Assembly: GCF_014138625.1 (NCBI RefSeq)
Contig: NZ_JACJHY010000009.1
Span: 1-64,000, forward strand
Direction of reading: 5' to 3'
Origin: Aminobacter ciceronei
GTDB taxonomy: Bacteria > Pseudomonadota > Alphaproteobacteria > Rhizobiales > Rhizobiaceae
Length of the DNA stretch: 64,000 bases
The notes under the pieces are model-generated. The model was not told the origin of the DNA. It saw only the letters and a program-made list of their open reading frames with translations, and did not search any database. Position 1 is the first letter of the stretch; each line of letters opens with the position of its first letter. This document shows positions 7,958 through 40,186 of the stretch, piece by piece. Made by a program: the position numbers and the translations under genes.

Positions 7958-8211
7958 CCGGGCCTCCAACCCATGAGTTAGCTCCTAGGTATCGCCGTTC
8001 CTGCTGTGGCACTACCGAAAGTAGAGGATGTCCACAGCACCTGCTGACCTGATGCGGGGGATGTCCCACTGGTGAAAGCAAGCATCCGAGTTGGATTTAC
8101 GACGCATACTTGGCCAGAACCACTTGCAGTTCTTCGGTTCAGCTGCAGCCGCTATTGCTGGTTCTTATTGGTGCATGGAAAATTCCGCCGGGGTTGGACT
8201 GGCCGGCAGGC

Positions 8212-11665: not shown

Positions 11666-13363
11666 TTACCTAAGGACCTGCGCGACGTACGGCGCGAGGC
11701 CGACCTTCTGGATCACAGCCCGGTCGCAGTGGTCGCAACAAGTCCTGAACCGCAGGCTCCTATCCTTGCTGCCAAATGCCCAATCCAGGATGCGTAGCGA
11801 TAAGCTCCGTCGGACCATCATCGGCGGTCCTTCGAAGTAGCGGTTGACGGAGTTCCTAACGCATCTGTCGGCACGCATCATTTCTCCGACCTGATCAATG
11901 CGCCGTAGGCGCTGTTTTAGCATCTCTTCCTTCGTCGGAGGATCCACGACCGCTCCCTCAACGGTCAGATTGGCCATGTAGGCCAATCGGGACGTATCGC
12001 GGCCGTTCTGAACTCCGTCATGGAACATCACTGCCACGGATTGCTTGCCGTCTCTGCCAGCGCGGCCGAACTCCTGCAGCTGATCCTCCACCGACGCGGA
12101 GTGTTGCCAGTGGATCACCAACCGTACGTTGGGGACATCGAGTCCCATTCCGAAAGCGTTGGTGCAGATGATCTGATCTGCCACCGGGCGACTCTGGCCG
12201 AGGAAGCGCTTCAGCAGTTCCTGACGTTCCCACGACGTGCCCAAGCGGGAATGGTAGAATGGAATTTCTAGGCCTTCGGCTCGCAGGGCCTGCTGCAGGT
12301 GCTCGCCAACCTTTGCCGACGGTACAAATATCATTACTTTCTGGTCGCGAAGTTGAGGTAGTCGGATCAGCTTCGCGATCGCGAGTGCCCGTTGCGCAGC
12401 CGCACATTTCGACCTGATAAGCGCGATGTTGGGACGGTCGACACCGCGCACGAAAACGAGAGCGTCTTCCACGCCAAGCGAAGCCAGGATTCGCTTCTGC
12501 ATCTCGATGCCCGCGGTGGCAGTAAATGCCAGGACGGGAGGGGAGCCAAGCTTTTCACGAACTTCTCGTAGCCGCCCGTATTCCCTCCGGAAGTCGCCAC
12601 CCCATTGGTCGACACAATGAGCCTCATCGACAACAAGAAAGGCTGGCTTGGTTTCTTTCAGTTTCTGCCGTTCCGCCTCGCTGCGAACGAAGAAGCGCTC
12701 TGGAGCGAGGTAGAGCATCTTCACGGCCTGGCGAGCGATCAGATTGAAGCGAATTCCCTTTTCGTCCGAACTTAGGTCGCTGTTGATGAAGGTGGCCGGG
12801 ATCTTATTGGATAGAAGGTCCGAGACCTGTTCGGACATCAACGTCTTCAGCGGGCTAACAACAATGGAGATGCCGCGGCGCAATACGGCCGGGAGTTGGA
12901 AGCACAGGGTCTTGCCGGATCCTGTTGGACTGACGACAAGGACGGATTTGCCAGCAAGGGCTGCCAGCACGATAGGCAGTTGTCCATGCCTGAACCGTTC
13001 CACCCCAAATAGCCGCAGTGCAGGCCCGAAGTTCCCGCACGTTTCCGAGGTAAGGCCTTCGGTATCCAGCCATCGAGCCAGTCTGACGGCCCATCGTTCG
13101 ATGGCACGACGGGCCAAGCCGCCGGCGAGCGTTGGATGATGTGACGCATGGCACCCGTCACACAATGTCACCAAGTTGGCCAACTCGTCGGTGCCGCCCA
13201 TGGATCGAGGCAGCAGGTGATGCACGTCGGCATCCTGCTTCACTGATTCGGAACACGACACACAACGATAGTTGTCTCGATTGAGAACTTGTTGGCGAGT
13301 TGCTTGCCAGTGGGTAGGCACTGTAGGTCGACCCCGTCGAATATTCGCCGTCGCCGGCATCAT
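11666..13363 (-). CDS. HNH-RecQ fusion helicase
   Basis: A 565-residue protein. Residues of about 28-80 form an HNH zinc-finger nuclease module: YRCVSCSE, VHHLLPRSMGG, then LCDGCHASHH. The rest is a RecQ-family superfamily 2 helicase: Walker A SPTGSGKTLCFQLP near 145, VDEAHCVDQWGGDFR (DEAH box plus the RecQ aromatic-rich loop), AFTATA, and FGMGLDVPNVR...QEFGRAGRDGK (motif VI). A Cys cluster near the C-terminus (CVRNSVNRYFEG then CCDHCD) matches the RecQ zinc-binding subdomain. No HRDC domain follows. The fusion would cut and unwind DNA in one chain; a role in phage or plasmid interference is inferred from the location only. Two adjacent ATGs and a GTG cluster at the start; 13363 is taken. Confidence 0.85.
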   Translation of the reverse strand: MMPATANIRRGRPTVPTHWQATRQQVLNRDNYRCVSCSESVKQDADVHHLLPRSMGGTDELANLVTLCDGCHASHHPTLAGGLARRAIERWAVRLARWLDTEGLTSETCGNFGPALRLFGVERFRHGQLPIVLAALAGKSVLVVSPTGSGKTLCFQLPAVLRRGISIVVSPLKTLMSEQVSDLLSNKIPATFINSDLSSDEKGIRFNLIARQAVKMLYLAPERFFVRSEAERQKLKETKPAFLVVDEAHCVDQWGGDFRREYGRLREVREKLGSPPVLAFTATAGIEMQKRILASLGVEDALVFVRGVDRPNIALIRSKCAAAQRALAIAKLIRLPQLRDQKVMIFVPSAKVGEHLQQALRAEGLEIPFYHSRLGTSWERQELLKRFLGQSRPVADQIICTNAFGMGLDVPNVRLVIHWQHSASVEDQLQEFGRAGRDGKQSVAVMFHDGVQNGRDTSRLAYMANLTVEGAVVDPPTKEEMLKQRLRRIDQVGEMMRADRCVRNSVNRYFEGPPMMVRRSLSLRILDWAFGSKDRSLRFRTCCDHCDRAVIQKVGLAPYVAQVLR

Positions 13364-13881
13364 CACTGAACAATCATGTTCCAGTTGTGGATTAAGGAAG
13401 TCCTGACGGCCGATCGACGAGGTCGGACAAGGGGCTTCGCGATCAAGGGATATGGATCATCGTTCTGGTGTCCTGCTTCACAGATCCGACGGACGTTTCC
13501 AATGAAGCACGGTTACGCAGCTCGCGCTGAAGAAGGGACAGCCAAGAGCGCCGTCACGCCCCCCGAAAGTGCGATCGTTCGCCGAGCGCACAGTCTTGAT
13601 GCGGTTGATTCGATCAAATCGGAGATGCTGGACGCGGTCCTGTATCGACTATCAAGGTGCGGGAGGGAATTCGAAGCAAGCTATAAGCAAAATCGAAAGT
13701 CAGATCTTCTCGAATGCTATGGTCGATGGTATAAACCGAATCTGCTCTTAGGCAGGAGCAAGCCGCCCGTCGTTGCGAAGCTGTTGACAGCGCTGCCGAT
13801 TGAACGCTCCCCGTCCATGTCATGTTCGGGCTCGCGAAGTGGTTGACGGGCGACGCTTCAATGTGAGCCAGGAGAACTGGC
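13364..13881. other. intergenic region, no supported gene
   Basis: About 520 bases between the divergent HNH-RecQ and DUF5623-like genes. Open frames exist on both strands (for example up to 13846 on plus) but have no ribosome-binding site and no protein pattern I recognise. Promoters of both flanking genes should lie here. Confidence 0.5.
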
Positions 13882-17513: not shown

Positions 17514-17795
17514 GTGGGGATATGGCTGGAATTGTCGGAAATCGCTGAATACGAAGTTGTGGTGGAGCTTCCGCCACAGTTCACCGAGTACATCGATGCT
17601 GCATCGCTTCGGCTCCAAGGGCTTTTCCCTCGCTGCCGTTTTGCGAGGGTTGCGAACTCGGTAGCCGTCCAACTCGCGGGCGGCCTCTCGGAAGACCAGA
17701 TACGCGTGGCTGTCACTCACGCCGTCTATCGCGAGAAAATCTACGCAGAAACACTGGCCATGCGGCACTCGCTCGTCTCAGCGGTGATGGGATGA
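17514..17795 (+). CDS. hxsD: His-Xaa-Ser system protein HxsD
   Basis: A 93-residue protein at the head of the His-Xaa-Ser (Hxs) operon. Its reading frame shows the short-protein pattern expected for HxsD (EYEVVVELPPQ ... YIDAASLRLQG ... HAVYREKIYAET). HxsD is a partner of the two radical SAM maturases; its molecular role is not known. It begins with GTG at 17514, since an in-frame stop lies only four codons upstream and no in-frame ATG is available. Its stop overlaps the ATG of hxsB by four bases (ATGA), showing translational coupling. Identification depends on the neighbours as well as on length. Confidence 0.8.
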   Translation: MGIWLELSEIAEYEVVVELPPQFTEYIDAASLRLQGLFPRCRFARVANSVAVQLAGGLSEDQIRVAVTHAVYREKIYAETLAMRHSLVSAVMG

Positions 17796-19204
17796 CGAAC
17801 CTCTGGCCGTTGCGATTCCGCGAGTTTGCGGACAGATCGCTTCTGTTCGCCGACGATGCCGGCGGCTTCTTCAAGTCTGACGCGAGCTTTCTGGACCGCT
17901 ATGCGTCTGACGGCCTGACCTCCTCGGACAAGGAGTTCCTTAGGGACAGCGGTCACAGCTACGACAAACAGTTCGATCTTCCCTGGACCTCGTTTGCATA
18001 TCGCTGGGCGCGGCGACAATCGAAGCCTCAGGATTTGAACTATGTCATCCTGGTCCCGACCCTCAGGTGCAATCTAGCGTGCGGGTATTGCCAGGTATCA
18101 AGGGTTGCTGAGACAGCGCGCGGCTTCGATTGGTCGGACGAGACCTTGAAGGCGGTGCTTGCCTTCCTGAAGACGATCGAGGGGAGCGAAATCAAGATTG
18201 AGTTCCAAGGCGGGGAACCGCTCCTTCGGCTGGATTTGCTGGAGGCGGTTCGTGATTTCTGCCGGGCTCGGTTTTCCAGCGCGCAATTTGTCGTCTGCAC
18301 GAACCTGCAGCATCTCGATGAAGCGGCTTGGGCCTTCCTGGAGGCTGACGACACATTCATCAGCACGTCGCTCGACGGCGATCGGGAGACTCATGAACGT
18401 CAGCGAACCCATGATCGGGCTCGGACCACCACATTCTTCTCGAATCTTGAAGCGGCGGTTGCTCGTTATCCTGAGGGCAAGATTTCGGCTCTGCCGACGG
18501 TGGACGTGACGGCTCCGCCAGATTTCGAGGCACTGCTGGAAAGCTATGAGAAGTACGGCATCCGATCCGTGTACCTGCGGCCGATCAATCACCAGGGGTT
18601 CGCTCGGAAACTTGACCAAGGGGAGAACGCTCTGGCCCGATGGAACGAACTCCACGCCGATTTCATCGATCTGCTGATCGAGCGGAACCACCGCACAGGG
18701 CGCTTTATGGAGGAGTACTACTTCAGCCAATGCCTGAAGCGGGTGCTCCATTTCGGAGCCGACAACCACGTCGACATCCGGAACCCGAACTTCTTCGCCG
18801 CCGACTACATAGTCGTCGACCACGACGGACGCTTCTATCCGACGGATGAGGCCCGGATGCTGTCCAGGATTGGCCGCATTGACCTCAGTATCGGAGACGT
18901 GACCAGCGGTATCGACAGGTCGAAGGTCCAAACGCTCAACTCCGGCGCATTCAACCATTTCGACCCGGACTGCATCCATTGCGCTTACCAGCCATTTTGC
19001 GGCACGGACGTGGTCGACGACATCTCACGCTATGGGCGTATTGACCTTCCGCGGTACGAGACTTCGTTCTGCGGCCGGCATCTGGCGATCTTCGACAAGG
19101 TGTTCGAGGTGATCTACCGCCAGGACGAGGCAAGTAAAGCTTCGGTGGCCACTTGGCTCGGCATTGCCGATTGGGACATCAGCATGCTGGCGGTGCATTC
19201 ATGA
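17792..19204 (+). CDS. hxsB: His-Xaa-Ser system radical SAM maturase HxsB
   Basis: A 470-residue radical SAM enzyme. The 4Fe-4S cluster motif CNLACGYC has its three Cys at residues 93, 97 and 100. FQGGEPLLR follows (the GGE block that binds S-adenosylmethionine), and a SPASM-like Cys cluster occurs near the C-terminus (CIHCAYQPFCG). This layout is that of peptide-modifying radical SAM maturases. In the Hxs system HxsB and HxsC are thought to modify the His-Xaa-Ser repeats of HxsA; the chemistry has not been read from this sequence. The gene overlaps hxsD and hxsC by four bases each (ATGA), so the operon is tightly coupled. Confidence 0.92.
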   Translation: MTNLWPLRFREFADRSLLFADDAGGFFKSDASFLDRYASDGLTSSDKEFLRDSGHSYDKQFDLPWTSFAYRWARRQSKPQDLNYVILVPTLRCNLACGYCQVSRVAETARGFDWSDETLKAVLAFLKTIEGSEIKIEFQGGEPLLRLDLLEAVRDFCRARFSSAQFVVCTNLQHLDEAAWAFLEADDTFISTSLDGDRETHERQRTHDRARTTTFFSNLEAAVARYPEGKISALPTVDVTAPPDFEALLESYEKYGIRSVYLRPINHQGFARKLDQGENALARWNELHADFIDLLIERNHRTGRFMEEYYFSQCLKRVLHFGADNHVDIRNPNFFAADYIVVDHDGRFYPTDEARMLSRIGRIDLSIGDVTSGIDRSKVQTLNSGAFNHFDPDCIHCAYQPFCGTDVVDDISRYGRIDLPRYETSFCGRHLAIFDKVFEVIYRQDEASKASVATWLGIADWDISMLAVHS

Positions 19205-20307
19205 TACCGCTGCGCATCAAGGTCGAGGCGAACGCAGAACAGCCTTTTGTTGTTCGGCTACGGTCATTTGAGGCAATGCCAGGGACAGAGCGTGGTGCGT
19301 GCCATCCCCACGATGTCTGTTTGGAGGCGGTCGATGCCAACGGCGCCGAGTATGTAGGCGAGGGTGGGTCACTACGAATCCTTGGGATAGATCCCTCGGA
19401 AATCGATGGGGACGTGCTCTTGGTCAACCCGCAGCGTGGCACCGCCGACCGCATTATTCGCAGTTCCTCGCCGCATAACACGCTCCTTGTCACGGAACGC
19501 TGTGACCAGCTCTGCGTGATGTGTTCGCAGCCGCCGAAGAAGCAGCACGTCGATCTCTTCGAGCATTTTGCCATCGCGGCCATGCTGGCTCCCGAGGGAG
19601 CTACGATCGGGATTTCCGGCGGCGAACCTACGCTGTTCAAGGACCAATTATTGGGGTTTTTGGCTCGCGTTATGCGTGCCCGGGAGGACCTTCACTTCCA
19701 TGTCCTTACGAACGGTCAGCATTTTGACGATGCCGACCGTGAAGCGATGCATGCTCTGGACAGAAGCAGGGTGGTATGGGGCGTGCCGCTCTATTCAGCC
19801 GAGCCGGATGTTCACGACGAGATCGTGGGCAAGCCTGGGGCGCACGAGAAACTCCTATCGAATTTGGCATTCCTTTGCCGCGTCGGCGCTCAGGTGGAAC
19901 TTCGTACCGTCCTGATGCGGCCGAATGCGGACGGCCTGCCGAGGCTTGCGCGGTTCCTTGCAGCGTCGGTCCCGTTCATCCAAACGTGGGCGATCATGCA
20001 GCTCGAGAACATCGGCTACGCGCGGCAGAATTGGAGCCGCCTGTTCCACGACAGCTCTTCAAACTTCAGTCCGATCGCCCGGGGGATCGATTTCGCCCGG
20101 AGCCGCGGCATCGATGTGCAGCTCTACAACTTTCCACTGTGCACGGTGCCGTTGCCGTACCGAAACCTAGCGCCGTCGACGATATCCGACTGGAAGCGCA
20201 CCTACCTGGAGGCATGCCGGGATTGCAGGCTTAGGAACCACTGCGGCGGGTTCTTTGAATGGCATCCTAAGGAACATGGATATGCGGGCTTGGGGAGGGC
20301 TGCATGA
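19201..20307 (+). CDS. hxsC: His-Xaa-Ser system radical SAM maturase HxsC
   Basis: A 368-residue second radical SAM enzyme. The cluster motif CDQLCVMC has Cys at residues 101, 105 and 108; GISGGEPTL supplies the SAM-binding GGE block. The C-terminus has a Cys/His set (CRDCRLRNHCGG) that may hold an auxiliary cluster. The ATG at 19201 overlaps the hxsB stop (ATGA), which decides the start over an upstream in-frame ATG at 19153. The stop overlaps the hxsA ATG in the same way. Pairing of two distinct radical SAM proteins with HxsD and an HxS-repeat substrate is diagnostic of the Hxs system. Confidence 0.92.
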   Translation: MIPLRIKVEANAEQPFVVRLRSFEAMPGTERGACHPHDVCLEAVDANGAEYVGEGGSLRILGIDPSEIDGDVLLVNPQRGTADRIIRSSSPHNTLLVTERCDQLCVMCSQPPKKQHVDLFEHFAIAAMLAPEGATIGISGGEPTLFKDQLLGFLARVMRAREDLHFHVLTNGQHFDDADREAMHALDRSRVVWGVPLYSAEPDVHDEIVGKPGAHEKLLSNLAFLCRVGAQVELRTVLMRPNADGLPRLARFLAASVPFIQTWAIMQLENIGYARQNWSRLFHDSSSNFSPIARGIDFARSRGIDVQLYNFPLCTVPLPYRNLAPSTISDWKRTYLEACRDCRLRNHCGGFFEWHPKEHGYAGLGRAA

Positions 20308-20867
20308 AGAAACGACTATTTGCGATCCCATCGTTGCTGGCGGCGGGTTTCCTTCCCGCTGAGGTGGAGGCGTTTCCTTCGAAGCCGACATTGACGGACA
20401 ACGGTAAGTCGCCGTCCCTATTCGATGTTTTTAGGATGGATCACGTCTACACTCTCGCTGGACATCGTAGCCACAGCTCCCATCGAAGCCATAGCTCCCA
20501 CAGAAGCCATCGTTCATCGAATGGCGGATATGTCTACAGAGCTCCCGTTTACAGAGCCCCGTCGCCCTCGTACGCGGCCCCGCTCTACAATCCGCCCACA
20601 CCTGCGCCGACTTACCAGGCGCCCGCGACTCCACCAGCGCCGGCACCTCTGAAGACGCTGCCAGGGAACGCAAACCGGTTCAAAGAAATCGTCCGAGAGG
20701 TGCAGTTCGCGATGCTGGCGTTTGGCTACTACAACGGCGAGCTCGATGGCGTGATGGGGCCGGACATGAGGGCAGGGCTCCAGCGTATGCAGGCGGACTA
20801 CAAGCTTAAGGTGACCGGGACGATCACCCCGGAAACGCTGGATGCGCTGAAGATCGAGGCGCGGTAG
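20304..20867 (+). CDS. hxsA: His-Xaa-Ser repeat protein HxsA (putative substrate)
   Basis: A 187-residue exported protein, the likely substrate of HxsB/HxsC. A signal peptide occupies about residues 1-23 (FAIPSLLAAGFLPAEVEA). Residues 54-71 are six His-Xaa-Ser triplets in a row (HRS, HSS, HRS, HSS, HRS, HRS). A proline/tyrosine-rich linker follows (APSPSYAAPLYNPP), and the C-terminal 70 residues form a peptidoglycan-binding domain 1 (REVQFAMLAFGYYNGELDG ... GLQRMQADYKLKVTG). The product would be a cell-wall-bound protein carrying modified His/Ser residues. It closes the operon; 44 bases separate its stop from the convergent qatD stop. Confidence 0.92.
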   Translation: MKKRLFAIPSLLAAGFLPAEVEAFPSKPTLTDNGKSPSLFDVFRMDHVYTLAGHRSHSSHRSHSSHRSHRSSNGGYVYRAPVYRAPSPSYAAPLYNPPTPAPTYQAPATPPAPAPLKTLPGNANRFKEIVREVQFAMLAFGYYNGELDGVMGPDMRAGLQRMQADYKLKVTGTITPETLDALKIEAR

Positions 20868-20911: not shown

Positions 20912-21673
20912 TCAATGCACAAGGGCTCGTGACATGAAGCCGTCGGACTTCATTGCGAGCGCACGCAAGTTCAGATCCAGCTGTTTTTGAGTGGTAGCGA
21001 TATCGCATCCCCAAATGCGGGATAGGGCTGAGACAGTATCTTTGAGCGCAGTGGTTGGATATCGCTCGCCAGTTGTTGACGCAAAAGGTGCATCGGTCTC
21101 AGTCAGAATTCGATCTCGTGGAATGCAGGAGATGAGTGTCGAAGCGCGACGGCTGCGAAGCATCGGTAGCCCCACCGAGAACCAGGCCCCCATCCCGGCA
21201 GCCAGTTCGGCATGCGAGACGGGCCCCGAAAACCAATGTAGGATCGCGACCCCAGCCGTTGGGTGGCGGCGGAGTGCCTCAATGACTTCGCCGCTTGCGT
21301 GGCGGCTGTGTATCGACATGACACGCCCGCCAACATCGGAACATCCCCTCAAGATCCTGTCGAACACTTCCATTTGAACACTGCGGTGCTGGGCAAAGTC
21401 ATTCCCGCCGTCGATTCCGATTTCTCCAACGTAGGCAGTTTCACCTAGCAGTCTCATAAACATGCCAACTTCTGTGTGCCGCTCATGTACAAGTTGCGGA
21501 TGCAGTCCCAGCGCCGTCCTAATACGCCTATGGCCCTTGGCAAGCTGGGCCGTTTTCGGGAAAGCCTTCGGTGTATTTGTGACCGAGAGTACGTACGCTC
21601 CCGTCCGTTCGATGTCGTCTGCGGCGATTGAAGGGACCGGAAAGAGGTCAAGATGGCAGTGAAAATCGATCAA
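20912..21673 (-). CDS. qatD: Qat defence system TatD-like nuclease QatD
   Basis: A 253-residue metal-dependent hydrolase of the TatD DNase family. Motifs in order: FHCHLD (metal-binding HxH at residues 5 and 7), GEIGIDG (acidic ligand), SIHSRHA, LHWFSG and TETDAPF (Asp ligand). It is the last gene of a four-gene operon with QatC, QatB and QatA, in the QatABCD order known from anti-phage defence islands. Its ATG overlaps the qatC stop by four bases. A lone housekeeping TatD would not normally be coupled to a QueC-like gene. Confidence 0.9.
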   Translation of the reverse strand: MIDFHCHLDLFPVPSIAADDIERTGAYVLSVTNTPKAFPKTAQLAKGHRRIRTALGLHPQLVHERHTEVGMFMRLLGETAYVGEIGIDGGNDFAQHRSVQMEVFDRILRGCSDVGGRVMSIHSRHASGEVIEALRRHPTAGVAILHWFSGPVSHAELAAGMGAWFSVGLPMLRSRRASTLISCIPRDRILTETDAPFASTTGERYPTTALKDTVSALSRIWGCDIATTQKQLDLNLRALAMKSDGFMSRALVH

Positions 21674-22992
21674 ATCCCAAGTCCTTGGCCTTTTAGGTAG
21701 GTGTGGACCTCGGCGAGACCTCGCTCGTGCACGCCGAACCAGCCCGCACGCTCTACAGCATCAATGGGAAGGGGGCCACTGGCAATAGCTCGTTGGCGTT
21801 GTCCCCGTGGGTCCCTAGCGATGGCCACAAGCATGGCCATGATGTCGTCACGAATATCTTGGCGGTCCCACGCCTTTCCCAGATCCGCGTATTGATAAGA
21901 GGTGGTATCAGGAATTCCCGCTTTCGCGAATGCAGCGCGCCGGATCAGGCATGGAACGCAGTGTCCGCATTGCTGGCTCTTTCGTTTCCATTTTCCGCAA
22001 GACACTGTTGCGACTGCCGTCTTTTTCAGAACGGGGTCGGAGTTCAGGGCGAGTAGCATTTCGCCTTTCGTCGAATGCCGATACTCGTTGGTCATTCGAA
22101 TCGGAATGCCGACCTTGCCGAAGATTGACTGCAGTTGCACAAGGAAGTTGGGATGTGTCGTGCGGGTGCTGTGTGAGCCGATCCTGCGTCGCGTAAGGGG
22201 TGCGTTGAGTGCGATGAAACCATTCTCCGGCACAAACAGCTCAATTTCTTCCATAGAAGGCTTCTTGGCCAAAACGGCGCTGCCGGCGATCCCGCCGTAT
22301 GCAAGGAACCCCAGGCTCCGGGTCCTCATGCTGGTGTCATTTTTGTTGGCGCCGGAGAACACCGGATTCGCATTTGCTGCGAACCTTGGCAGCTGTTTGC
22401 CAAGGCTCGGGCCTAAATTTCTCTGATAGCTTTGATCGCCTCGGTACGAGTGGCTTACGAGCAAAGGAGTTTTGCCCCGCATCACGAGTTGGCGAGCGCC
22501 AATCATGCTGTCGAGGCCTCCTGAGAACAGACAAACGCAGTCCGTCGACCCAATTCCGATATGGGACCGGTAGTGTCGCAGGATTGCTTCCTTGGACGGG
22601 GGCTCCTTTCCGCCGGACGTGAACGTAAACTGCCACCGATCCCCGCTCAGGAAGGCCAAAGCACGTTCAAGGTCGTCGACAACGCCTTCCCAGACCTTCG
22701 GCCGTGCAAGGGGAACCTCCAGCTTGAATTCGCGCGCCCATCCGTTGCCTGAGTAAGTTCCGCGATCGACAAAGGTGTCGGCGGCAATTACTGAAAGCGC
22801 TATCGACAAGAAGTCGAACGCCACCGGGTCGACCGACACGCCGAGCCGCTTGACGGCTAGATCAAGCGTACGGCCGATTGATGCGGTACCAAGACGTTGG
22901 GGGCGTGAGCCGTAGAGATGCACATGAATAGTATCTGCAGTGTCAGTGCTAGGAACACCCTCTTCGTCGATGTGGAACACGAGTCTATTCAT
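21670..22992 (-). CDS. qatC: Qat defence system QueC-like protein QatC
   Basis: A 440-residue PP-loop protein. The ATP-pyrophosphatase motif SGGLDS is at about residue 157, and a Cys-rich zinc site lies near the C-terminus (SCGKWKRKSQQCGHCVPCLIRR is split here as CGKWKR, QQCGHC and PCLIRR). Both are features of QueC, the 7-cyano-7-deazaguanine synthase, but the long N-terminal extension of about 150 residues is absent in QueC and typical of QatC. It probably modifies a base or a protein at the expense of ATP; the target is unknown. It overlaps qatB by eight bases and qatD by four. Confidence 0.9.
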   Translation of the reverse strand: MNRLVFHIDEEGVPSTDTADTIHVHLYGSRPQRLGTASIGRTLDLAVKRLGVSVDPVAFDFLSIALSVIAADTFVDRGTYSGNGWAREFKLEVPLARPKVWEGVVDDLERALAFLSGDRWQFTFTSGGKEPPSKEAILRHYRSHIGIGSTDCVCLFSGGLDSMIGARQLVMRGKTPLLVSHSYRGDQSYQRNLGPSLGKQLPRFAANANPVFSGANKNDTSMRTRSLGFLAYGGIAGSAVLAKKPSMEEIELFVPENGFIALNAPLTRRRIGSHSTRTTHPNFLVQLQSIFGKVGIPIRMTNEYRHSTKGEMLLALNSDPVLKKTAVATVSCGKWKRKSQQCGHCVPCLIRRAAFAKAGIPDTTSYQYADLGKAWDRQDIRDDIMAMLVAIARDPRGQRQRAIASGPLPIDAVERAGWFGVHERGLAEVHTYLKGQGLGI

Positions 22993-23743
22993 CGAAGCTT
23001 TCCCACTCCTTCCAGACTTCGGTCACTGCATCTCGCATGAAGCGCTGCACGGCATCGTTGTTGAGGTTGTCGCTTCCCGCCATGCTTGATCCGAGCCTTT
23101 TTTCGACAACGACACGGATCAACTCAAGCAGTTGGTTTTCCGCCTCTGGAGAACGCTTTTCGTCCGGACTGTTGGCCCAGGATCCGCCAACTTCCTCTAC
23201 GATGTCCTGAAAGACCGACTGGGAAAGGTATTCCGCAATAATGCGATGCACCGTCTCGTCGTCCAATCGTGTGGGGTCGAATTCCTCCTCACCAAGCACC
23301 TCGAGCATGGCTTCATCGATCGCAACGCGAATCCTGTCAGCGTCCGCGTTGTCCGGCGCGAGCGCTTCGGCCAGCCTCTGGCACACAACGTCGAGCGGCT
23401 GCCCTGTAAGTGAAGCCTTCGAAAGGCCGCGGGACTCTGCCTCCCGACCATCTCCGCCCAGTGACGACAGAACTTCGAAAAGTTCACCGCCTGTCGAGTA
23501 CACCGCGCCGTACCGGCGCGGCCCAACTGCACTTCCCCCCGTTGATGTCCTTGCATAGTGACCGAGGGATCGGCGGAGGTCTGCACTGTCGCCGCCCTTC
23601 AAGAATTTTCCGAATGATTTCCGGAAGGCTTTGAAACGCTCAGGCTGCGCGGCTGGCACTGGCTTACCTGGCTGGTCGTCCGTCCCAGGCGGTACGAGAG
23701 GCTGATTCTTGCCCGATCCCCTCGAGGAAGCTGAAGTTCCCAT
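22985..23743 (-). CDS. qatB: Qat defence system protein QatB
   Basis: A 252-residue protein without a known catalytic fold. It opens with MGTSASSRGSGKNQPLVPP, a Gly/Ser/Pro-rich start typical of QatB, then a basic helix (FKAFRKSFGKFLKGG), a Gly-rich stretch (TSTGGSAVGPRR) and a long helical C-terminal half ending VWKEWESFDE. The start at 23743 is preferred over an ORF start at 23911 because the ATG shares one base with the qatA stop (TGATG), giving coupling. In QatABCD this gene lies between the ATPase and the QueC-like protein; its role is unknown. Confidence 0.85.
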   Translation of the reverse strand: MGTSASSRGSGKNQPLVPPGTDDQPGKPVPAAQPERFKAFRKSFGKFLKGGDSADLRRSLGHYARTSTGGSAVGPRRYGAVYSTGGELFEVLSSLGGDGREAESRGLSKASLTGQPLDVVCQRLAEALAPDNADADRIRVAIDEAMLEVLGEEEFDPTRLDDETVHRIIAEYLSQSVFQDIVEEVGGSWANSPDEKRSPEAENQLLELIRVVVEKRLGSSMAGSDNLNNDAVQRFMRDAVTEVWKEWESFDE

Positions 23744-25512
23744 CAGGCTTTCCTCTTCGCGCCAGGCTCGTCTTCGTCCTTCATCATCGCCGTCATCCAG
23801 GCGGGTTTCTTCGGTATGCCTGCTAAGAAGCGGACGAGTTTTTCGTAACCAGCTGGGTTGGCCTTTGCCAGCAGGGCAGCGCCGCGGAAGTCGCTCCGAA
23901 TCCGGCTCCAATCAGGATTACGGTTCATCGCTACGATGATCTCGTCCATCACGTCAGCCATCTCTTCGGACGGAATCTGGTCGATCGCATCCTTGGATGC
24001 TTTTGAATTCATCGACACCGTTTTCAGCAATGTACCCACTGCCTTCCGAGCGAGCGGACTGAGATGTGCCGACAAGGTCCGCAACGGAAGTGTTTCGCGT
24101 GACAGGTAAACGGCAGGCCTTAGGTCAACGCCACCCAGCAGAGGTTCGAGCTTCAGCCAGTCTGATACGAAGTCGATATGCTTCTGCCAGGTCTTGGGAA
24201 GTCGAGCCTCTAGGCTTTCATTCTCTATTGTTTCCAGCTCGGTGAGGAGGGCTGGCTTTCCATCGGGGGCGGAATTGACCAAAGAACTGAAATCCCGGAT
24301 CGCCTCTTCGCCCATGCAACGTTCGAACAGGGCAAGTTTCGCAATGAAGGCTTCGCTCAATGCCATTCCACGTCGCTTTGCGACAGCCGAACGCATTCGG
24401 ATGACGTTCAACATACGCTTTACGATGCGAGGATTGCCGTTGATCCGAACGGAATGGGCAAGCAGGGCAGCAAGACGGTCCATTGCCTCAAGGGTCAGCA
24501 GAAGCTCGTCGTCGGGTGGCAGGTCCAGCATAACCTGGATATCCTTCACCTCGAACGGCGGTTCGTCGGACCAGCTCTTCCGCAGCTTCGAGATAAGGAA
24601 ATCGCGTACGTCGTTTGCCTTCTCTGAGCCTGCCCTGGCGATCGCCAGCATAGCAAGGTATGCCCTGACCTCTTGAAGGCCGAGTTTTGGTACCCGGATG
24701 GGAATCTGGATCAGCTTGTCGAGATAGTCGGTAACGTGTCGATCGCCCGGTTCAGAGAAGTGTTTTGATACCGCAAGGCGGATCATCTCCTCGTCAGCCG
24801 CGACTACGAACGCAGTATTGGGCAGAAACAGAAAGAGCCGCATCGCCTCAAGAGTTGCGATGGCGTTTGTTGGCAGACAGCGGTCCAGGTTGTCGACGAA
24901 CACTACGAGCCTGCGTCCCATAGAAGATAGAAGTGCGCCGAACTCTTCGCGAAAAGCGGCGATTTCTTCCGGAGCGTTGCGTTTTTCCTGCGGCCTGAGG
25001 AGACCGCTTCCGCGCTCCTGAGCTGCCTTGGTAGCGTCTCTAACGGCTTCGACATCCTCCTCGTCGGAAGTGCCTTTCCACATATCTTCCGCGGAGCCAG
25101 CCGCTTTCGTGAATAGTCCGAGAGTTGGGACCCCTGCGAGCAATGCACCCACGTCCGCGGCCAGACCAAGCACCTTGAGTTTGTTTATTCGCCGATAGAA
25201 CCCGGCCGCTCGTTCTTTCAATGTTTCAGGACTGGCCTCATAAAGGCTCTTGGCTATGACGGTCATTAAGGCAGACTTTGCCTCATCGAAATCCTGAAAT
25301 AACCACGCGTCGAACGAGATAATTAGGTTTCGCTTGTCGGTCGCCAGCTGCTGCTCGACGAGCCGAAGGATGCTGGATTTTCCTACTCCCCAGGTACCAT
25401 ACACGCCGAGAGATATGGGTAGCATGCTGTCGTCGGACAGCATGTCACCAATCATCTCCGAAACCTCTGAGTAGTTTAGATAGTCAACGTCGCTTTCACT
25501 GTCCGTCCACAT
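23743..25512 (-). CDS. qatA: Qat defence system KAP-family P-loop ATPase QatA
   Basis: A 589-residue KAP-type NTPase, first gene of the operon. Walker A GTWGVGKS is at residues 39-46, and the Walker B VVFVDNLDRC lies near residue 205, followed by FVVAADEEMIRLAV, the block typical of KAP ATPases. A hydrophobic stretch near residue 110-125 (LAADVGALLAGVPTLGLF) resembles the insert that may touch the membrane in this family. It is the likely sensor or energising subunit of the Qat system. No promoter was identified in the 255 bases upstream. Confidence 0.9.
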   Translation of the reverse strand: MWTDSESDVDYLNYSEVSEMIGDMLSDDSMLPISLGVYGTWGVGKSSILRLVEQQLATDKRNLIISFDAWLFQDFDEAKSALMTVIAKSLYEASPETLKERAAGFYRRINKLKVLGLAADVGALLAGVPTLGLFTKAAGSAEDMWKGTSDEEDVEAVRDATKAAQERGSGLLRPQEKRNAPEEIAAFREEFGALLSSMGRRLVVFVDNLDRCLPTNAIATLEAMRLFLFLPNTAFVVAADEEMIRLAVSKHFSEPGDRHVTDYLDKLIQIPIRVPKLGLQEVRAYLAMLAIARAGSEKANDVRDFLISKLRKSWSDEPPFEVKDIQVMLDLPPDDELLLTLEAMDRLAALLAHSVRINGNPRIVKRMLNVIRMRSAVAKRRGMALSEAFIAKLALFERCMGEEAIRDFSSLVNSAPDGKPALLTELETIENESLEARLPKTWQKHIDFVSDWLKLEPLLGGVDLRPAVYLSRETLPLRTLSAHLSPLARKAVGTLLKTVSMNSKASKDAIDQIPSEEMADVMDEIIVAMNRNPDWSRIRSDFRGAALLAKANPAGYEKLVRFLAGIPKKPAWMTAMMKDEDEPGAKRKA

Positions 25513-25767: not shown

Positions 25768-26490
25768 CTAAAAGAAAGGACGATTTGTCGGTTCTCTGCG
25801 GCTTATCATCCTGCTCTCCACCAGCGCAGGCATGTAGAAGTTCTTGTCGTCCTGATTGTTGAACCCCATCCTATTATAGACACTACCGCCGATGCCTGGG
25901 ATGACGTTGCCGTTCTCATCCGCTTGCCCGTCTATGGCCAAAACCCAGTACTCAAACTTATCACCTACTGCAGTGGGAAATTCAGCCTCGAGCCTCTTGC
26001 GAGCGCCTTTTAGCATGACTGGCGAAGCGACGTGGATACGCTCCGGGTCTGTCTCGTCGAGCATCCTTAGAAGGCTGGTCCGGATAGTGCACGAACTGGA
26101 AACGATGCTCTTCAGCACTACGAAGTGGTCGACGTGTGGTGGGATCGGATCCATGTACTCCTGAATTATGTTCGCAACTTCCTCGCGATCAGGAACTCTG
26201 AGAGTCTTACGGTCCATCCACAAACAGGTTAGCCGCACATCTGCGCCAGCCCGGGTAAGAACCTCAATAAAACCGCTTCCTAGCGAGTCTACGTCCTCGA
26301 CTCCTGCGACCACCAAAACGATCTTGTCCTTAAGATCTACGGTCTCAGACATCCGGTGTGCGAGGTTATCACCCAAGCGCTCTAGTGCGTGCCGATACGC
26401 CTCAGGAGGAGTGCTTGTCTCAGTTAAGGCAGCAAGCGAGTTAAGTACGTCGTCCGTAGCTATGCCGAGATATCGCCTGCGAACAGTCAT
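25768..26490 (-). CDS. UPRT-fold protein with degenerate PRPP loop (candidate immunity gene)
   Basis: A 240-residue protein whose second half follows the layout of uracil phosphoribosyltransferase (UPRT). The usual PRPP loop (DPMLATGGS in E. coli Upp) is replaced by LKSIVSSSC, followed by TIRTSLLRML in place of the helix. The later blocks still fit: VASPVMLKGARKRLEAEFP (Upp VAAPEGIAALEKAHP) and IDGQADENGNVIPGIG (Upp IDQGLNEHGYIIPGLG), then NRMGF. So the fold is probably kept while the PRPP-binding acid and glycines are lost. The ATG overlaps the stop of the upstream gene (ATGA), so the two form an operon. The function is unknown; a modified-nucleotide or ligand-sensing role is a guess. Confidence 0.7.
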   Translation of the reverse strand: MTVRRRYLGIATDDVLNSLAALTETSTPPEAYRHALERLGDNLAHRMSETVDLKDKIVLVVAGVEDVDSLGSGFIEVLTRAGADVRLTCLWMDRKTLRVPDREEVANIIQEYMDPIPPHVDHFVVLKSIVSSSCTIRTSLLRMLDETDPERIHVASPVMLKGARKRLEAEFPTAVGDKFEYWVLAIDGQADENGNVIPGIGGSVYNRMGFNNQDDKNFYMPALVESRMISRREPTNRPFF

Positions 26491-27341
26491 TGCGTATCCT
26501 TCAAGAGCGCGTAGAACTCAAGGAAATCCGACGGCGGTGCAAGCTTCAATCTGTTCTCGAAATTGGTCCACCGTTCAGTGCCGCATTCGTAGGGAACATG
26601 GCCTCGTCCATTCGAGAAGTGGTAGAGGAGTGTTCTCGCCCGGAGCCCGTAGCCAAAATCAGCTATCTGGTCGAGAATGTTCCGAACGTCCTCCGAAAGC
26701 TGAAATTGCGGCTCAAGTGTCCGAAGGGTCCAAGATGACAAACGGCTTGCGCTCCACAGTATCTCTGAAAGGCTCGCATTGCGACCAAGATCTTCCCATG
26801 CCGCCAGGATGTGGGCGCGACTATCTCTCTTTGCGTTTTGGGTGTTGTACGGTTCCAGCATGACGCTTACCGCCTCGTCATAGCCTGCAAATGGCGTCTC
26901 GAAATGCAGCAAAGCCACGTCACTTAGGTCCTCCGGGCAGCTTTCCCTTAGTTTCGTAACCACATCCGCCCTGGAAACAACGATCTCGATGCATCCTACG
27001 ATGTCGGCTTCATCGTTGCACGAGCGCTGATGGCGGCAATCTTCATCGAGCCCGTCCCAGCCTTGCTTCTGCTTATCTTTCAGTTGCGAAAAAATTGTGC
27101 GGTCAGGAAAGTGGACCAGAAAATCATCAATAAAACAAAGCGCTTGCGCTTGTAGGTAGATGTTTGTCCCATCGTTTTCCGACATGAGACATTCTACAGC
27201 TAGTTGAATAATACGTGACAGTGCGTACTCACGCTCGTAGGCAGCCCCTTTGTCGGCACTGTCTCCGCCGCGGCGTTTCCTCTCGACTCTCTTCCGAGGC
27301 TCGACACCAAGAAGAGTCTCAATCTGATCGAGGGTCAACAT
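26487..27341 (-). CDS. possible PD-(D/E)xK-type nuclease (Cap4/DUF4297-like pattern)
   Basis: A 284-residue protein, first gene of the pair with the UPRT-like gene. Around residues 75-100 it reads CFIDDFLVHFPDRTIFSQLKDKQ, that is an acidic DD, a spacer and QxK. This is the layout of the D...(E/Q)xK active site in DUF4297/Cap4-type dsDNA nucleases, with the preceding DKGAAYEREYALSRII helix carrying a likely first Glu. The C-terminal part is helical with no named domain. The ATG at 27341 is used; a TTG at 27353 is also possible. The family link is from pattern only and needs a profile search. Confidence 0.6.
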   Translation of the reverse strand: MLTLDQIETLLGVEPRKRVERKRRGGDSADKGAAYEREYALSRIIQLAVECLMSENDGTNIYLQAQALCFIDDFLVHFPDRTIFSQLKDKQKQGWDGLDEDCRHQRSCNDEADIVGCIEIVVSRADVVTKLRESCPEDLSDVALLHFETPFAGYDEAVSVMLEPYNTQNAKRDSRAHILAAWEDLGRNASLSEILWSASRLSSWTLRTLEPQFQLSEDVRNILDQIADFGYGLRARTLLYHFSNGRGHVPYECGTERWTNFENRLKLAPPSDFLEFYALLKDTQ

Positions 27342-27544
27342 CTCAATGAACAATCTCTGACAAAGTAGGGCTCTGCCCGCTAGCGAATCCGCATGTCATA
27401 TCATGGCCATCAAGCAAGAGCGCTCAATTGAGGTACCTGGACTAAGTAGTCTTTGCGCCGTCGCGACTGGTGGAGAATTCCTGCAGCGGGATACCTCTCG
27501 CGTAGGGCAATTGGGACGCGGAATGTTTGGTCGCTGTTGCCCCG

Positions 27545-27765: not shown

Positions 27766-28080
27766 CTAACGGCCGAACTTCACGTCTGTAGTTCCGGGTA
27801 AATATCCCGCATATCCCGCGTATCCCGGATATCCCGGATAACCGGGGTATCCAGGATATCCGGGATATCCTGGATACCCCCTGTAGGAAGGGGAAACTTT
27901 GCGCAGCAGGCGATTTCCGAAGATCGAACCTAGGTAGGTTCCGCTGGTGTCGACCGCGTCGTCGTCGCTCCACGGAAACCATCCCACCCATTTGCCTTTG
28001 ACATCGAATAGATACTTATCATGGGGTGACCGCCTAAACGCGATCCACTTGCCACTTCTGTCGAAGAGATGCTGAACCAT
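27766..28080 (-). CDS. Tyr-Pro-Gly repeat protein, probable beta-flower family
   Basis: A 104-residue protein. The first 60 residues show repeated short strand pairs with FDRSGKWIAF, YLFDVKGKWVGW, VDTSGTYLGSIF; such G(K/T)W/YhGxh repeats fit the small 4-fold beta-flower proteins. Residues 66-92 are nine tandem triplets (YRG, six YPG, two YAG), giving a flexible Tyr/Gly-rich tail. No signal peptide is seen. The DNA of the tail is an imperfect 9-base tandem repeat (27805-27885). Function unknown. The family name is a resemblance, not a search result. Confidence 0.6.
   Translation of the reverse strand: MVQHLFDRSGKWIAFRRSPHDKYLFDVKGKWVGWFPWSDDDAVDTSGTYLGSIFGNRLLRKVSPSYRGYPGYPGYPGYPGYPGYPGYAGYAGYLPGTTDVKFGR
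27805..27885. repeat. imperfect 9-bp tandem repeat (TATCCCGGA-like)
   Basis: Nine degenerate copies encoding Tyr-(Pro/Ala/Arg)-Gly, or its complement, inside the beta-flower-like gene. The copies differ mostly at third positions. It may change in copy number through slippage. Confidence 0.7.
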
Positions 28081-28408: not shown

Positions 28409-31400
28409 TCAGCTGCACCCTGATGTCGCGCCGCAGGTGTCGCACTTTTCGCAGGTGCCGTTTCGGACCATGGTGAAGTTCTGGCACTCGGAGCAGGAGT
28501 TGCCGGTGTAGCCCTGCAGCATCGACTTGGCGCGGCGGTCGGCGGCGACTTTCTTGGCGTCGGAGGCTTCCTGGGCGGCGGCGTCGGTGAACAGCGACGT
28601 CGTCACCGTTTCCTCCGTCTCCTCAACGGTGATTTCCTCGGCCAGTTCCTTGGCGCGCTCCTCATAGTCGCGCTTGTAGGCGGTCGATTCCTCAGCCGAG
28701 ATCGCAGCCTTTGGCGACAGCGACAGCACGTTGGAGCCGGAGAAGGCGGTCACCGGTGTCGCGCGCGCCGGGGCGGTGGTGGCCGAACCCTTGGGGTCGT
28801 TGCCGGCGCCGGCCGAGACGACCTTGAGCGGCGAGGCACCGCGGGTCAGGCCCTTGGAGAAGGGCAGGGCCTTGCCTTCGGTGATGCCCTTGCCAAGTGC
28901 GGTCTTGTCGAAGTCCGACTGGTCGACATGGGCGAGGTCGTGGCGGCCGAGGTAGCTGACGGCGAGCTCGCGGAAGACGTAGTCGAGGATAGAGGTGGCG
29001 TTCTTGATGGCATCGTTGCCGATGACCATGCCGGCCGGCTCGAACTTGGTAAAGGTGAAGGCTTCGACATATTCATCGAGCGGCACGCCGTACTGCAGGC
29101 CGAGCGAGATCGCGATGGCGAAGTTGTTCATCATCGCACGGAAGGCAGCGCCTTCCTTGTGCATGTCGATGAAGATTTCGCCCAAGCGGCCGTCGTCGAA
29201 CTCGCCGGTGCGCAGATAGACCTTGTGGCCGCCGACGACAGCCTTCTGGGTGTAGCCCTTGCGGCGGTTCGGCAGCTTCTCGCGGTCGCGGTAGAGACGC
29301 TCGATGACGCGCTCGACGATCTTTTCGGTGACCTGTACCGCCTTGGCGGCGGCAGGTGCTGCGATCAGCGCCTCGACGACCTCGTCTTCATCCTCGTCCT
29401 CGTCAGCGATCAGCGAGGCATTTAGCGGCTGCGACAGCTTCGAGCCGTCGCGGTAGAGCGCGTTGGCCTTCAGCGCCAGCTTCCATGACAGCATGTAGGC
29501 GCTCTTGCAGTCCTCGACCGTCGCCTCGTTGGGCATGTTGATGGTCTTGGAGATGGCGCCCGAGATGAAGGGCTGGGCTGCCGCCATCATGCGGATGTGG
29601 CTGTCGACCGAGAGATAACGCTTGCCGATCTTGCCGCAGGGATTGGCGCAGTCGAACACGGCAAGGTGCTCTTCTTTCAGGAAGGGCGCTCCCTCGAGGG
29701 TCATCGCACCGCAGACATGGATGTTGGCGGCTTCGATGTCCTTCCTGGAGAAGCCGATGGCCGGCAGGATTTCGAACGAGAAATCGTTGAGCTGCGCGTC
29801 GGTGAAGCCAAAAGTCTCCTTCACCCAGTCGGCACCCAGCGTCCACTGGTTGAACACGAACTTGATGTCGAAGGCGCTCTTCAGCGCCGCATTCAGCGCT
29901 TCGATCTTCTCGTCGGTGAAGCCCTTGGCCTTCAACGAGCCGGGGTTGATGCCAGGTGCCTGGTTGAGATTGCCGTGGCCGACTGCATAAGCCTCGATCT
30001 CGGCGATCTGGGCCTCGGTGTAGCCGAGCGTGCGCAGCGCCTCGGGTACTGCACGGTTGATGATCTTGAAGTAGCCGCCGCCGGCGAGCTTCTTGAACTT
30101 GACCAGTGCGAAGTCAGGTTCGATGCCTGTGGTGTCGCAATCCATGACCAGGCCGATCGTGCCGGTCGGCGCGATCACGGTTGCCTGAGCGTTGCGGTAG
30201 CCGTGCTTTTCGCCCAGCTCGATGGCGAGGTCCCAGGCAGCGCGGGCGTGGCTGACCAGCTCCTGCTGCTTGACGTCGCTTGCCACCAGCGGCACCGGAT
30301 TGACCGACAGCTTCTCGTAGCCGTCCTTGTCGCCATAGGCGGCGCGGCGGTGGTTGCGCATGACACGCAGCATGTTGTCGGCGTTGCGGTCGTAATCGGC
30401 AAAGGCGCCGAGCTCGGAGGCCATCTCGGCCGAGGTGGCATAGGCAATGCCGGTCATGATCGCGGTCAGAGCTGCGCCGATGGCGCGGCCTTCGTCGCTG
30501 TCATACGGAATGCCCGAGGTCATCAGCAGGCCGCCGATATTGGCATAACCCAGACCAAGCGTACGGTACTCGTAGGACAGCTTGGCGATTTCCTTGGACG
30601 GGAACTGCGCCATCATGACCGAGATTTCGAGCACCATGGTCCACAGCCGCACGGTGTGCTCGTAGGCGGCGATGTCGATGCTGCCGTCGGCGTTGCGGTA
30701 GGGCAAAAGGTTGATCGACGCCAGGTTGCAGGCGGTATCGTCGAGGAACATGTATTCCGAGCACGGATTGGAGCCGCGGATCGGGCCGGCAGCCGGGCTG
30801 GTGTGCCAGTCGTTCATCGTGGTGTTGAAGTGCAGGCCCGGATCGGCCGAAGCCCAGGCGGCGTAGCCGATCTTTTCCCACAGGTCGCGCGCCTTGAGCG
30901 TCTTCATCACCTTGCCGTCCTTGCGGGCGGTCAGGTGCCAGTCGCCATCGGTTTCCACGGCGCGCAGGAAGTCGTCCTTGAGCGAGACCGAGTTGTTGGA
31001 GTTCTGGCCCGAAACGGTGAGGTAGGCTTCCGAATCCCAGTCGGTGTCGTAGGTCTTGAACTCGATCGAGGTGTAGCCCTGCTTGGCGAACTGGATGACG
31101 CGGTAGATGTAGTTTTCCGGCACCGCGTTCTTCTTGGCGGCCTTGATCTCGCGCTTGAGCGCGGTGTTGATCGCCGGATCGAAGCAATCGTCATCCTGGC
31201 CTTCGCAGTTGACGCAGGCAGCCATGATCTTGGCGAGGTGCTGCTTGACGATCTTGGAGCCGGTGACGAGTGCTGCGACCTTCTGCTCTTCCTTCACCTT
31301 CCAGTCGATATAGGCCTCGATGTCGGGGTGGTCGGCGTCGACGACGACCATCTTGGCGGCGCGGCGGGTGGTGCCGCCTGACTTGATGGCGCCGGCGGCA

Positions 31401-32188
31401 CGATCGCCGATCTTGAGGAAGCTCATCAGGCCCGACGAACGGCCGCCACCGGACAGCTTTTCGCCTTCGCCGCGCAGCATCGAGAAGTTGGAGCCGGTGC
31501 CCGAGCCATATTTGAACAGCCGTGCCTCACGCACCCACAGGTCCATGATGCCGCCCTCGTTGACGAGGTCGTCCTGGACGCCCTGGATGAAGCAGGCATG
31601 CGGCTGCGGATGTTCGTAGGACGACTTCGACTTGGTCAGCTTGCCGGTGAAGGGGTCGACATAGAAGTGGCCCTGGCCGGGACCGTCAATGCCATAGGCC
31701 CAGTGCAGGCCGGTGTTGAACCACTGCGGCGAGTTCGGCGCGACCCGCTGGGTGGCGAGCATGTAGGCCAGTTCGTCCTTGAAGGCGCGGGCGTCGCCTT
31801 CGGACTTGAAATAGCCACCCTTCCAGCCCCAGTAGGTCCAGGTGCCGGCGAGGCGGTCAAAGACCTGACGGGCGTCGGTCTCGGAGCCATAGCGTTCGTT
31901 CTCGGGCAGCTTTTCCAGTTCGGCTTCGTCGGGGATCGAGCGCCACAGGAAGGAGGGGACGTCGTTCTCCTCGACCTTCTTCAGGCGGGCGGGCACCCCG
32001 GCCTTGCGGAAATATTTCTGCGCCAGGATGTCGGCAGCGACCTGGCTGAACTGCGCCGGCACGTCGATGTTGTCGAGGCGGAACACCACCGAACCGTCGG
32101 GGTTCTTGATCTCGGATAGGGCCTTGCGGAATTCGATCTCCGCATAGGCCGATTGTCCATCCTTGGTGAAACGCCGCTCGATGCGCAT
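28409..32188 (-). CDS. nrdJ: adenosylcobalamin-dependent ribonucleoside-diphosphate reductase
   Basis: Class II ribonucleotide reductase, 1259 residues, which makes deoxyribonucleotides using adenosylcobalamin and needs no oxygen. Visible features include [25 protein letters not shown] (substrate and catalytic Cys region), [19 protein letters not shown], and a Cys-rich zinc tail ([13 protein letters not shown] then [14 protein letters not shown]) typical of the long rhizobial NrdJ with its C-terminal TSCPD-like extension. The long length matches this group. Start 32188 is preceded by an AAGGA ribosome-binding site. It stands alone, with a long leader and a NrdR-like box upstream. A large antisense frame (29597-31381) is a shadow. 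Confidence 0.97.
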
Positions 32189-40101: not shown

Positions 40102-40186
40102 TGGTGCGGACGGCGGGGATCGAACCCGCATAGCCGAGGCTGAGAGATTTTAAGTCTCTTGCGTCTACCAGTTTCGCCACGTCCGC
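40102..40186 (-). tRNA. tRNA-Leu (UAA)
   Basis: An 85-base cloverleaf on the minus strand with a perfect seven-base acceptor stem (GCGGACG/CGTCCGC), the long variable arm of class II tRNAs, a GGTTCGATCC T-loop region and an anticodon loop CTTAAAA giving UAA. The 3' CCA is encoded (TGG at 40102-40104 on plus). Confidence 0.97.

Follow-up and report, generated by a model that had tools for sequence, protein, structure and literature searches.

A conserved bacterial gene pair places a predicted PD-(D/E)xK nuclease beside a UPRT-fold protein with a remodeled active site

Why is a protein with the fold of the housekeeping enzyme UPRT encoded together with a predicted nuclease, next to a complete set of Qat genes, in a bacterium that has an ordinary upp gene elsewhere? 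The question arose from 64,000 nucleotides of Aminobacter ciceronei (contig NZ_JACJHY010000009.1, positions 1 to 64,000; this whole stretch is called the window here), which belong to a genome of 6.77 Mb in 96 contigs. A preliminary description, made from the sequence alone, had pointed to an ATGA-overlapping gene pair that adjoins Qat within a defense-rich stretch, and our analysis upheld this layout. The features concerned are the following.

26487-27341, minus strand: gene 1, 284 amino acids from ATG, predicted PD-(D/E)xK nuclease (TTG at 27353 is an alternative start candidate)
25768-26490, minus strand: gene 2, 240 amino acids, UPRT-fold protein
26487-26490, minus strand: ATGA, 4-nt overlap of the gene 1 stop and the gene 2 start, read from the sequence
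20912-25512, minus strand: QatD, QatC, QatB, and QatA, by PADLOC and NCBIfam, downstream of gene 2
28409-32188, minus strand: nrdJ-type ribonucleotide reductase, upstream of the pair, a shared flank and not a part of the system
17792-20867, plus strand: His-Xaa-Ser cluster, with HxsB and HxsC above the NCBIfam cut-offs
11666-13366, minus strand: DpdF-like helicase, 806.6 bits to DpdF
4840-7969, minus strand: Gabija, by PADLOC (GajA, 763.2 bits; GajB, 604.6 bits), lying about 18 kb away from the pair
2309-4351, plus strand: FtsH-like AAA protein, IetA/TRIP13-like by PADLOC

The whole pair is compact (about 1.6 kb, 25768-27341 on the minus strand), and its ATGA junction suggests that the two genes are translationally coupled. 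All four Qat genes were recognized by PADLOC models (QatA, 679.7 bits; QatB, 200.9; QatC, 374.4; QatD, 268.2), and NCBIfam scored QatC and QatD above its cut-offs and QatA and QatB below theirs. We considered whether the pair could itself be a component of Qat and rejected this reading: the four-gene Qat alongside is complete, and no Qat match was found in the examined stretches of five other loci (L055, L056, L060, L087, and L088). Gabija and the DpdF-like helicase bear out the defense-rich character of the window. The His-Xaa-Ser cluster also encodes a His-Ser-repeat protein with a peptidoglycan-binding domain, presumably HxsA-like, and a single tRNA lies at 40102-40186. Small open reading frames separate gene 1 from the upstream reductase gene, which we take to be nrdJ. 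Upstream of the pair, the minus-strand frame at 27766-28080 encodes a small GYPGYPG-repeat protein that scored 24.7 bits against beta-flower, for which the Pfam cut-off is 25.

The UPRT fold that had been proposed for gene 2 was confirmed. The Pfam UPRTase model (PF14681) matched the window protein with 29 bits against a cut-off of 27 and, at an E value of 0.01, 7 of the 55 members of the gene 2 family; conversely, a profile of these 55 members retrieved the UPRT of S. solfataricus from the PDB (E value of 7.8e-5). An AlphaFold2 model built with 51 rows had a mean pLDDT of 92.1, and in the Foldseek search with it the first 24 matches were UPRT entries except for 2e55 and 1v9s, whose titles name no function. 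The match to 1xtt_B had an E value of 3.7e-12 and a TM-score of 0.76 by target and 0.67 by query. Other PRTases followed after the top 24, with PyrR among the lower matches. Gene 2 resembles UPRT over the whole fold (about 220 columns), in the conserved D187 and PG block, and in its Pfam match, but it lacks a 17-residue UPRT loop after position 52 and is extended at the C terminus by a conserved stretch of about 30 residues that UPRT does not have.

The active site differs far more. When the window protein was aligned with the UPRT of the host, which is encoded by an ordinary upp gene on another contig (242 bits; a third match in the genome, with 22.6 bits, is below the cut-off), LRAG faced VEDV, YRDHETL faced WMDRKTL, DPMLATANS faced KSIVSSSCT, and PGLGDAGDR faced PGIGGSVYN. 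The last of these blocks retains PG-x-GG. The replacement of DPMLATGGS by LKSIVSSSC held, except that its register was off by one, as the PRPP-loop D aligns with K127. Passages of PMC3570474 propose Arg77, Arg102, and Asp198 of UPRT for PRPP binding or catalysis. We mapped these residues onto the host upp by position, a mapping of our own, and found Glu65 of gene 2 opposite the Arg77 equivalent, Gly202 opposite the Asp198 equivalent, and Lys127 opposite the PRPP-loop D, all three being invariant; the Arg102 equivalent faces residue 92, which is Asn in at least 90% of the rows and Met in the window. Because the PRPP-binding and catalytic residues are replaced, it is very unlikely, judging from the alignment, that gene 2 performs the UPRT reaction. 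For the same reason, and since the host has a separate upp gene, we rejected the reading of gene 2 as a housekeeping UPRT.

The site was not simply lost, however. The preliminary description spoke of a lost PRPP loop, and the PRPP site is indeed destroyed, but new invariant residues (E65, D66, W91, K127, C134, G202, and Y205) occupy the ancestral active-site positions, whereas D187, P198, and G199 are invariant and kept from UPRT in the motif blocks. Ten of the 21 invariant columns of gene 2 fall within the 34 positions of five motif blocks, which we picked ourselves, against an expectation of 3.0 (hypergeometric p of 1e-4, or 5e-4 when just the UPRT-aligned columns are counted). This alignment omits loci L011, L014, L040, L060, L061, and L074, and then L017, L024, and L029. 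Since the new invariant residues sit at ancestral active-site positions, the pocket of gene 2 probably still performs a specific job, with the site under selection.

For gene 1, a DD-spacer-QxK layout like that of Cap4/DUF4297 nucleases had been noted, and the motif proved real. In an alignment of 44 intact rows of our choosing (18 loci whose copies are broken, partial, or duplicate were left out, and then L017 and L029), G25, G26, G32, E36, D72, D73, Q86, K88, and W95 are invariant; E36 adds a third acidic motif residue that the first reading had not named. When the motif was re-checked on all gene 1 frames, including the rows left out, E-D-D-Q-K was present in 62 of the 63 frames covering the five positions, a count that includes copies of the window and other near-copies, with 11 further frames being too partial for full coverage. 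The remaining frame, L068, reads E-D-D-E-K. It is one of three divergent homologues with E-x-K in place of Q-x-K, the others being L083 (EAK) and L084 (ELK), and these count in favor of a nuclease because a Q/E swap is expected in PD-(D/E)xK enzymes.

Structural comparison gave weak matches, led by nucleases. The AlphaFold2 model of gene 1 (pLDDT of 93.5) gave no PDB match at an E value of 0.001 or below, the best being 0.011; yet the 17 top-ranked matches were nucleases or nuclease-bearing proteins, among them the nickase BspD6I, R.BspD6I2, Cap4, NucS/EndoMS, and HerA-DUF, with TM-scores by query of 0.21 to 0.38. LmuAB and Hjc ranked lower, and unrelated enzymes appeared from rank 21. Cap4 itself (6wam_F) matched with an E value of 0.019, a probability of 0.97, and a TM-score of 0.37 by query. 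Sequence profiles did not place the protein in a family. Pfam returned no convincing family among the 44 members, Cap4_nuclease (PF14130) matching one of them with an E value of 0.065, and the window protein had no significant NCBIfam or PADLOC match (LmuA, E value of 0.032 over residues 6-96). A scan with PF14130 gave zero matches both in 142 genomes of the class and in 14 controls and is uninformative. Thus, of the likeness to DUF4297/Cap4, the motif layout and the weak structural matches stand, but family membership by sequence profile does not. We take gene 1 as a predicted PD-(D/E)xK nuclease resembling Cap4/DUF4297, not a proven family member, and it would presumably have nuclease activity.

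Is the pair a unit? Searching a collection of species genomes with a gene 2 alignment of five rows yielded 375 pattern matches, which gave 64 loci. A gene 1 homologue, in some cases truncated, split, or frame-broken, adjoins gene 2 in 59 of them; the loci without it are L024, L064 (contig edge), L069, L071, and L073 (gene 2 remnants). A 548-amino-acid open frame in L005 and L060 could suggest a gene fusion, a reading that was rejected as gene 1 matches another frame. Spacing was taken from gene 2 to the nearest long upstream frame in 63 loci, near-copies included (L010-L063, L065, L066, L070, L074, L076, L002, L003, L005, and L009): 48 show the exact 4-nt overlap and 11 another spacing, and for 4 none was obtained. 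The viral collection held gene 1 beside gene 2 in one of six loci (L076). Starting from gene 1 instead, we found 8 loci in 7 of 637 genomes (5 of 247 and 2 of 390), and all eight have a gene-2-like neighbor. This set is partly independent, as five of its loci were already known through gene 2 and the window, G174, and G728 contribute rows to the gene 1 model; L083, L084, and L094 are new. By comparison with the gene 2 profile, the partners reached a probability of 97% in pair A and 99% in pair B of L087 and a marginal 52% in L084.

Contigs bearing the overlapping pair are titled Pseudomonadota, Cyanobacteria, Bacteroidota, and others. The prevalence of gene 2, counting the genome of the window each time, was low: 4 among 199 genomes in the family, 1 among 385 in the class, and 2 among 398 in the phylum. 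Over 44 loci, the distances of gene 1 and gene 2 are strongly correlated (Mantel r of 0.91; 0 of 9,999 permutations as high), a co-variation also expected from simple co-inheritance. Relative to the two nearest relatives, dN/dS was 0.14 to 0.23 for gene 1 and 0.07 to 0.10 for gene 2, indicative of purifying selection, although these values are rough, with dS above 1 in three of four window comparisons. The nearest gene 2 relatives are those of L055 and of L056, the latter from Mesorhizobium. In the tree, branches are long and clustering largely follows phylum, so we do not claim transfer between phyla. These data indicated that the pair is a conserved unit, more than a product of chance, and rare and patchy in its distribution.

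Some copies reside on plasmids. L002 is a 10.4-kb plasmid with the pair. In L023, a contig of 9,535 bases, gene 1 is split across both contig ends, which suggests a small circular plasmid carrying the pair. A plasmid search with gene 2 returned three records, of which two carry the pair and one a true upp, and a second gene 2 query gave the same two pair-bearing records. With window gene 1 as the query no plasmid matched, a search that is insensitive, as diverged homologues exist on plasmids L002 and L003; the partner of L087 pair A likewise matched no plasmid record. No phage record matched L016 gene 2, and scans of viral contigs with single proteins gave no match.

In raw tallies, copies in unrelated genomes also lie near known defense genes; overall, the neighbors include Qat (at the window), Pycsar, CBASS, and restriction-modification (R-M) genes. 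PADLOC tallies of 204 neighbors, taken after four neighbors of more than 1,300 amino acids were left out, gave 241 and 100 families, of which the first 25 each were listed; they count families, not matching neighbors. Across the PADLOC comparisons, strong matches were obtained at the window, L087, L010, L003, L022, L029, L032, and L035. A dense island is L087 (1-19001), where two diverged copies of the pair lie within 8 kb, together with a DNA methylase, an FRG protein (PDC-S15), a Pycsar TIR effector and cyclase, a CBASS E2, and one further protein:

L087, 8371-10347, plus strand: FtsH-like AAA protein, IetA/TRIP13-like by PADLOC, with a peptidase M41 domain

The presence of such FtsH-like proteins both here and in the window makes a recurrent island component possible. 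Elsewhere, a type III R-M system adjoins L010, DrmMI-like methylases occur at L003, L022, and L029, a DpdE/DrmD-like helicase at L022, a DruE-like helicase at L003, an RmrA-like protein at L032, and a type I specificity subunit at L035. Among ten hand-picked neighbors compared with PADLOC, seven had no match and one a weak one (L070). A different flank is shared by four loci: L055 and L056 have, next to the pair, an nrdJ protein 87% identical to that of the window (this large upstream frame was also considered as a methylase, a candidate that was rejected), and the final 35 nrdJ residues are encoded at the edge of L087 (18845-18949). The nrdJ flank may be an integration hotspot in Rhizobiales.

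We then asked whether such a system had been described. Partners of Cap4/DUF4297 nucleases are SAVED, HerA, or SMC-like proteins, and the motif layout of the family is acidic-D-QxK, as in gene 1. Gene 1 shares weak structural and sequence similarity with these nucleases (PF14130; CBASS Cap4, HerA-DUF4297, and Lamassu LmuA) but differs from them in having a UPRT-fold partner and no significant profile match. Passages of Rousset et al. 2022 (PMC9122126) describe DprA-PRTase, a two-gene defense system in which the PRTase is the proposed effector; as far as these passages go, it resembles the present pair in having a PRTase-superfamily protein in a two-gene system but differs in that the PRTase stands beside DprA, whereas here a UPRT-type protein stands with a nuclease. 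In the passages of the DefensePredictor study (PMC13092281), the legend of Fig. 4 names PRTase among the domains of validated E. coli systems and PD-(D/E)xK domains are given for 13 systems; these passages do not give the gene pairing. A Pseudomonas copy of our pair had no DNA match in an E. coli collection, a comparison that protein-level relatives could escape. The words PRTase and UPRT are absent from the main text of PMC12839542 and PMC10853773. No UPRT-nuclease pair was present among the matches listed in a search of open full-text literature, with preprints and most subscription journals outside its scope, in agreement with the preliminary description, which did not recognize such a form of immunity as described.

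Our preferred reading, to which we assign a probability of about 0.58, is that the pair constitutes a two-component anti-invader system whose DNA nuclease is gated by a regulator derived from UPRT and responsive to a ligand. In this model, the gene 1 nuclease would be harmless until assembled or released, and gene 2 would no longer make UMP but would keep its remodeled pocket. The pocket would bind a ligand that changes in level or form upon infection by the invader, most likely a phage; the ligand itself would most likely be a nucleobase or nucleotide, or else a phage product. A resulting change in the shape or oligomeric state of gene 2 would switch on gene 1, probably by bringing nuclease domains together, and activated gene 1 would cut either invader DNA or the cell's own, thereby protecting against the invader. 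The two proteins would presumably form a complex, with gene 2 acting either as an activator or as a releasable inhibitor.

Several precedents are compatible with such a mechanism. PRTase-fold regulators are known, namely PyrR and PurR. Passages of PMC3570474 give a monomer-tetramer model for the UPRT of M. tuberculosis, a behavior that by analogy would suit control by assembly. According to passages of PMC11291478, HerA promotes dimerization of DUF4297 nuclease domains, resembling active Avs3 nuclease dimers, and may serve as a precedent for nuclease activation by assembly. Phage infection can lower the expression of UMP-synthesis genes, as passages of PMC10986495 state. Points against the gating model are the low TM-scores of gene 1, its lack of a family match, and the copies on small plasmids, which also fit selfish maintenance. 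A more specific version is offered tentatively: in this immune system, a sensor derived from UPRT would survey the pyrimidine pool, or detect a modified pyrimidine, and the response would be to unleash a DNA nuclease, the further diverged variants (L087 pair A and L084) being tuned to other ligands.

The plasmid copies are among the facts that a toxin-antitoxin module would account for, an explanation that we regard as unlikely. Here, gene 2 would be a stable inhibitor of a constitutively toxic gene 1, the module would serve the maintenance of plasmids or islands such as the L002 plasmid, and defense would arise as a by-product once gene 2 is put out of action. That gene 2 can occur without its partner is shown by four IMG/VR contigs (L074, L075, L077, and L078), in which it is intact while gene 1 is reduced to its last codons, as in an orphan antitoxin, and such solo copies would fit an antitoxin or a decoy. 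Broken gene 1 also occurs beside intact gene 2, e.g., in L018, L030, L047, and L048. The four solo contigs share a common junction, however, and may represent a single event; they show zero synonymous change, being too alike for an estimate of selection. Moreover, several of the broken copies come from metagenome assemblies, a sample drawn through gene 2 favors intact gene 2, and the invariant remodeled pocket suggests more than a plug.

That same pocket could instead be catalytic. Gene 2 might be an enzyme with a new chemistry, on a nucleotide, a nucleic acid, or a protein, with gene 1 either activated by its product or reading it, and the invariant charged or nucleophilic residues E65, D66, D68, K127, C134, and D187, at or near UPRT active-site positions, speak for it. 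We know of no matching enzyme. The partner in L087 pair A lacks VED, KSIxxxC, and PGxGG, a loss more in keeping with turnover of a binding site than with catalysis that is conserved, and we consider a new enzyme quite improbable despite the proposed effector role of the PRTase in another two-gene defense system (passages of PMC9122126). A Type-IV-like restriction system, in which gene 2 as the specificity subunit would use the ancestral uracil site to recognize a modified pyrimidine in invading DNA and gene 1 would cut that DNA directly, is the remaining alternative and a very improbable one. It would agree with the PG-x-GG kept at the UPRT C-terminal motif and with the R-M or DISARM-like genes among the neighbors, but nothing in our results hints at DNA binding by gene 2, and other neighbors, such as Qat and Pycsar, are not restriction genes.

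Taken together, the computed folds, motifs, pairing, co-variation, patchy spread, defense neighbors, and loss of UPRT residues describe a two-gene unit whose putative role in defense is best accounted for, in our view, by gating of the nuclease. Defenses built from a nuclease and a regulator are a known kind, and a regulator descended from UPRT is undescribed in the literature found. Should the gating model prove correct, bacteria would have recruited a housekeeping salvage enzyme as an immune sensor, a compact two-gene system would be added in at least three phyla, and nucleotide-pool surveillance in bacteria would become directly testable.
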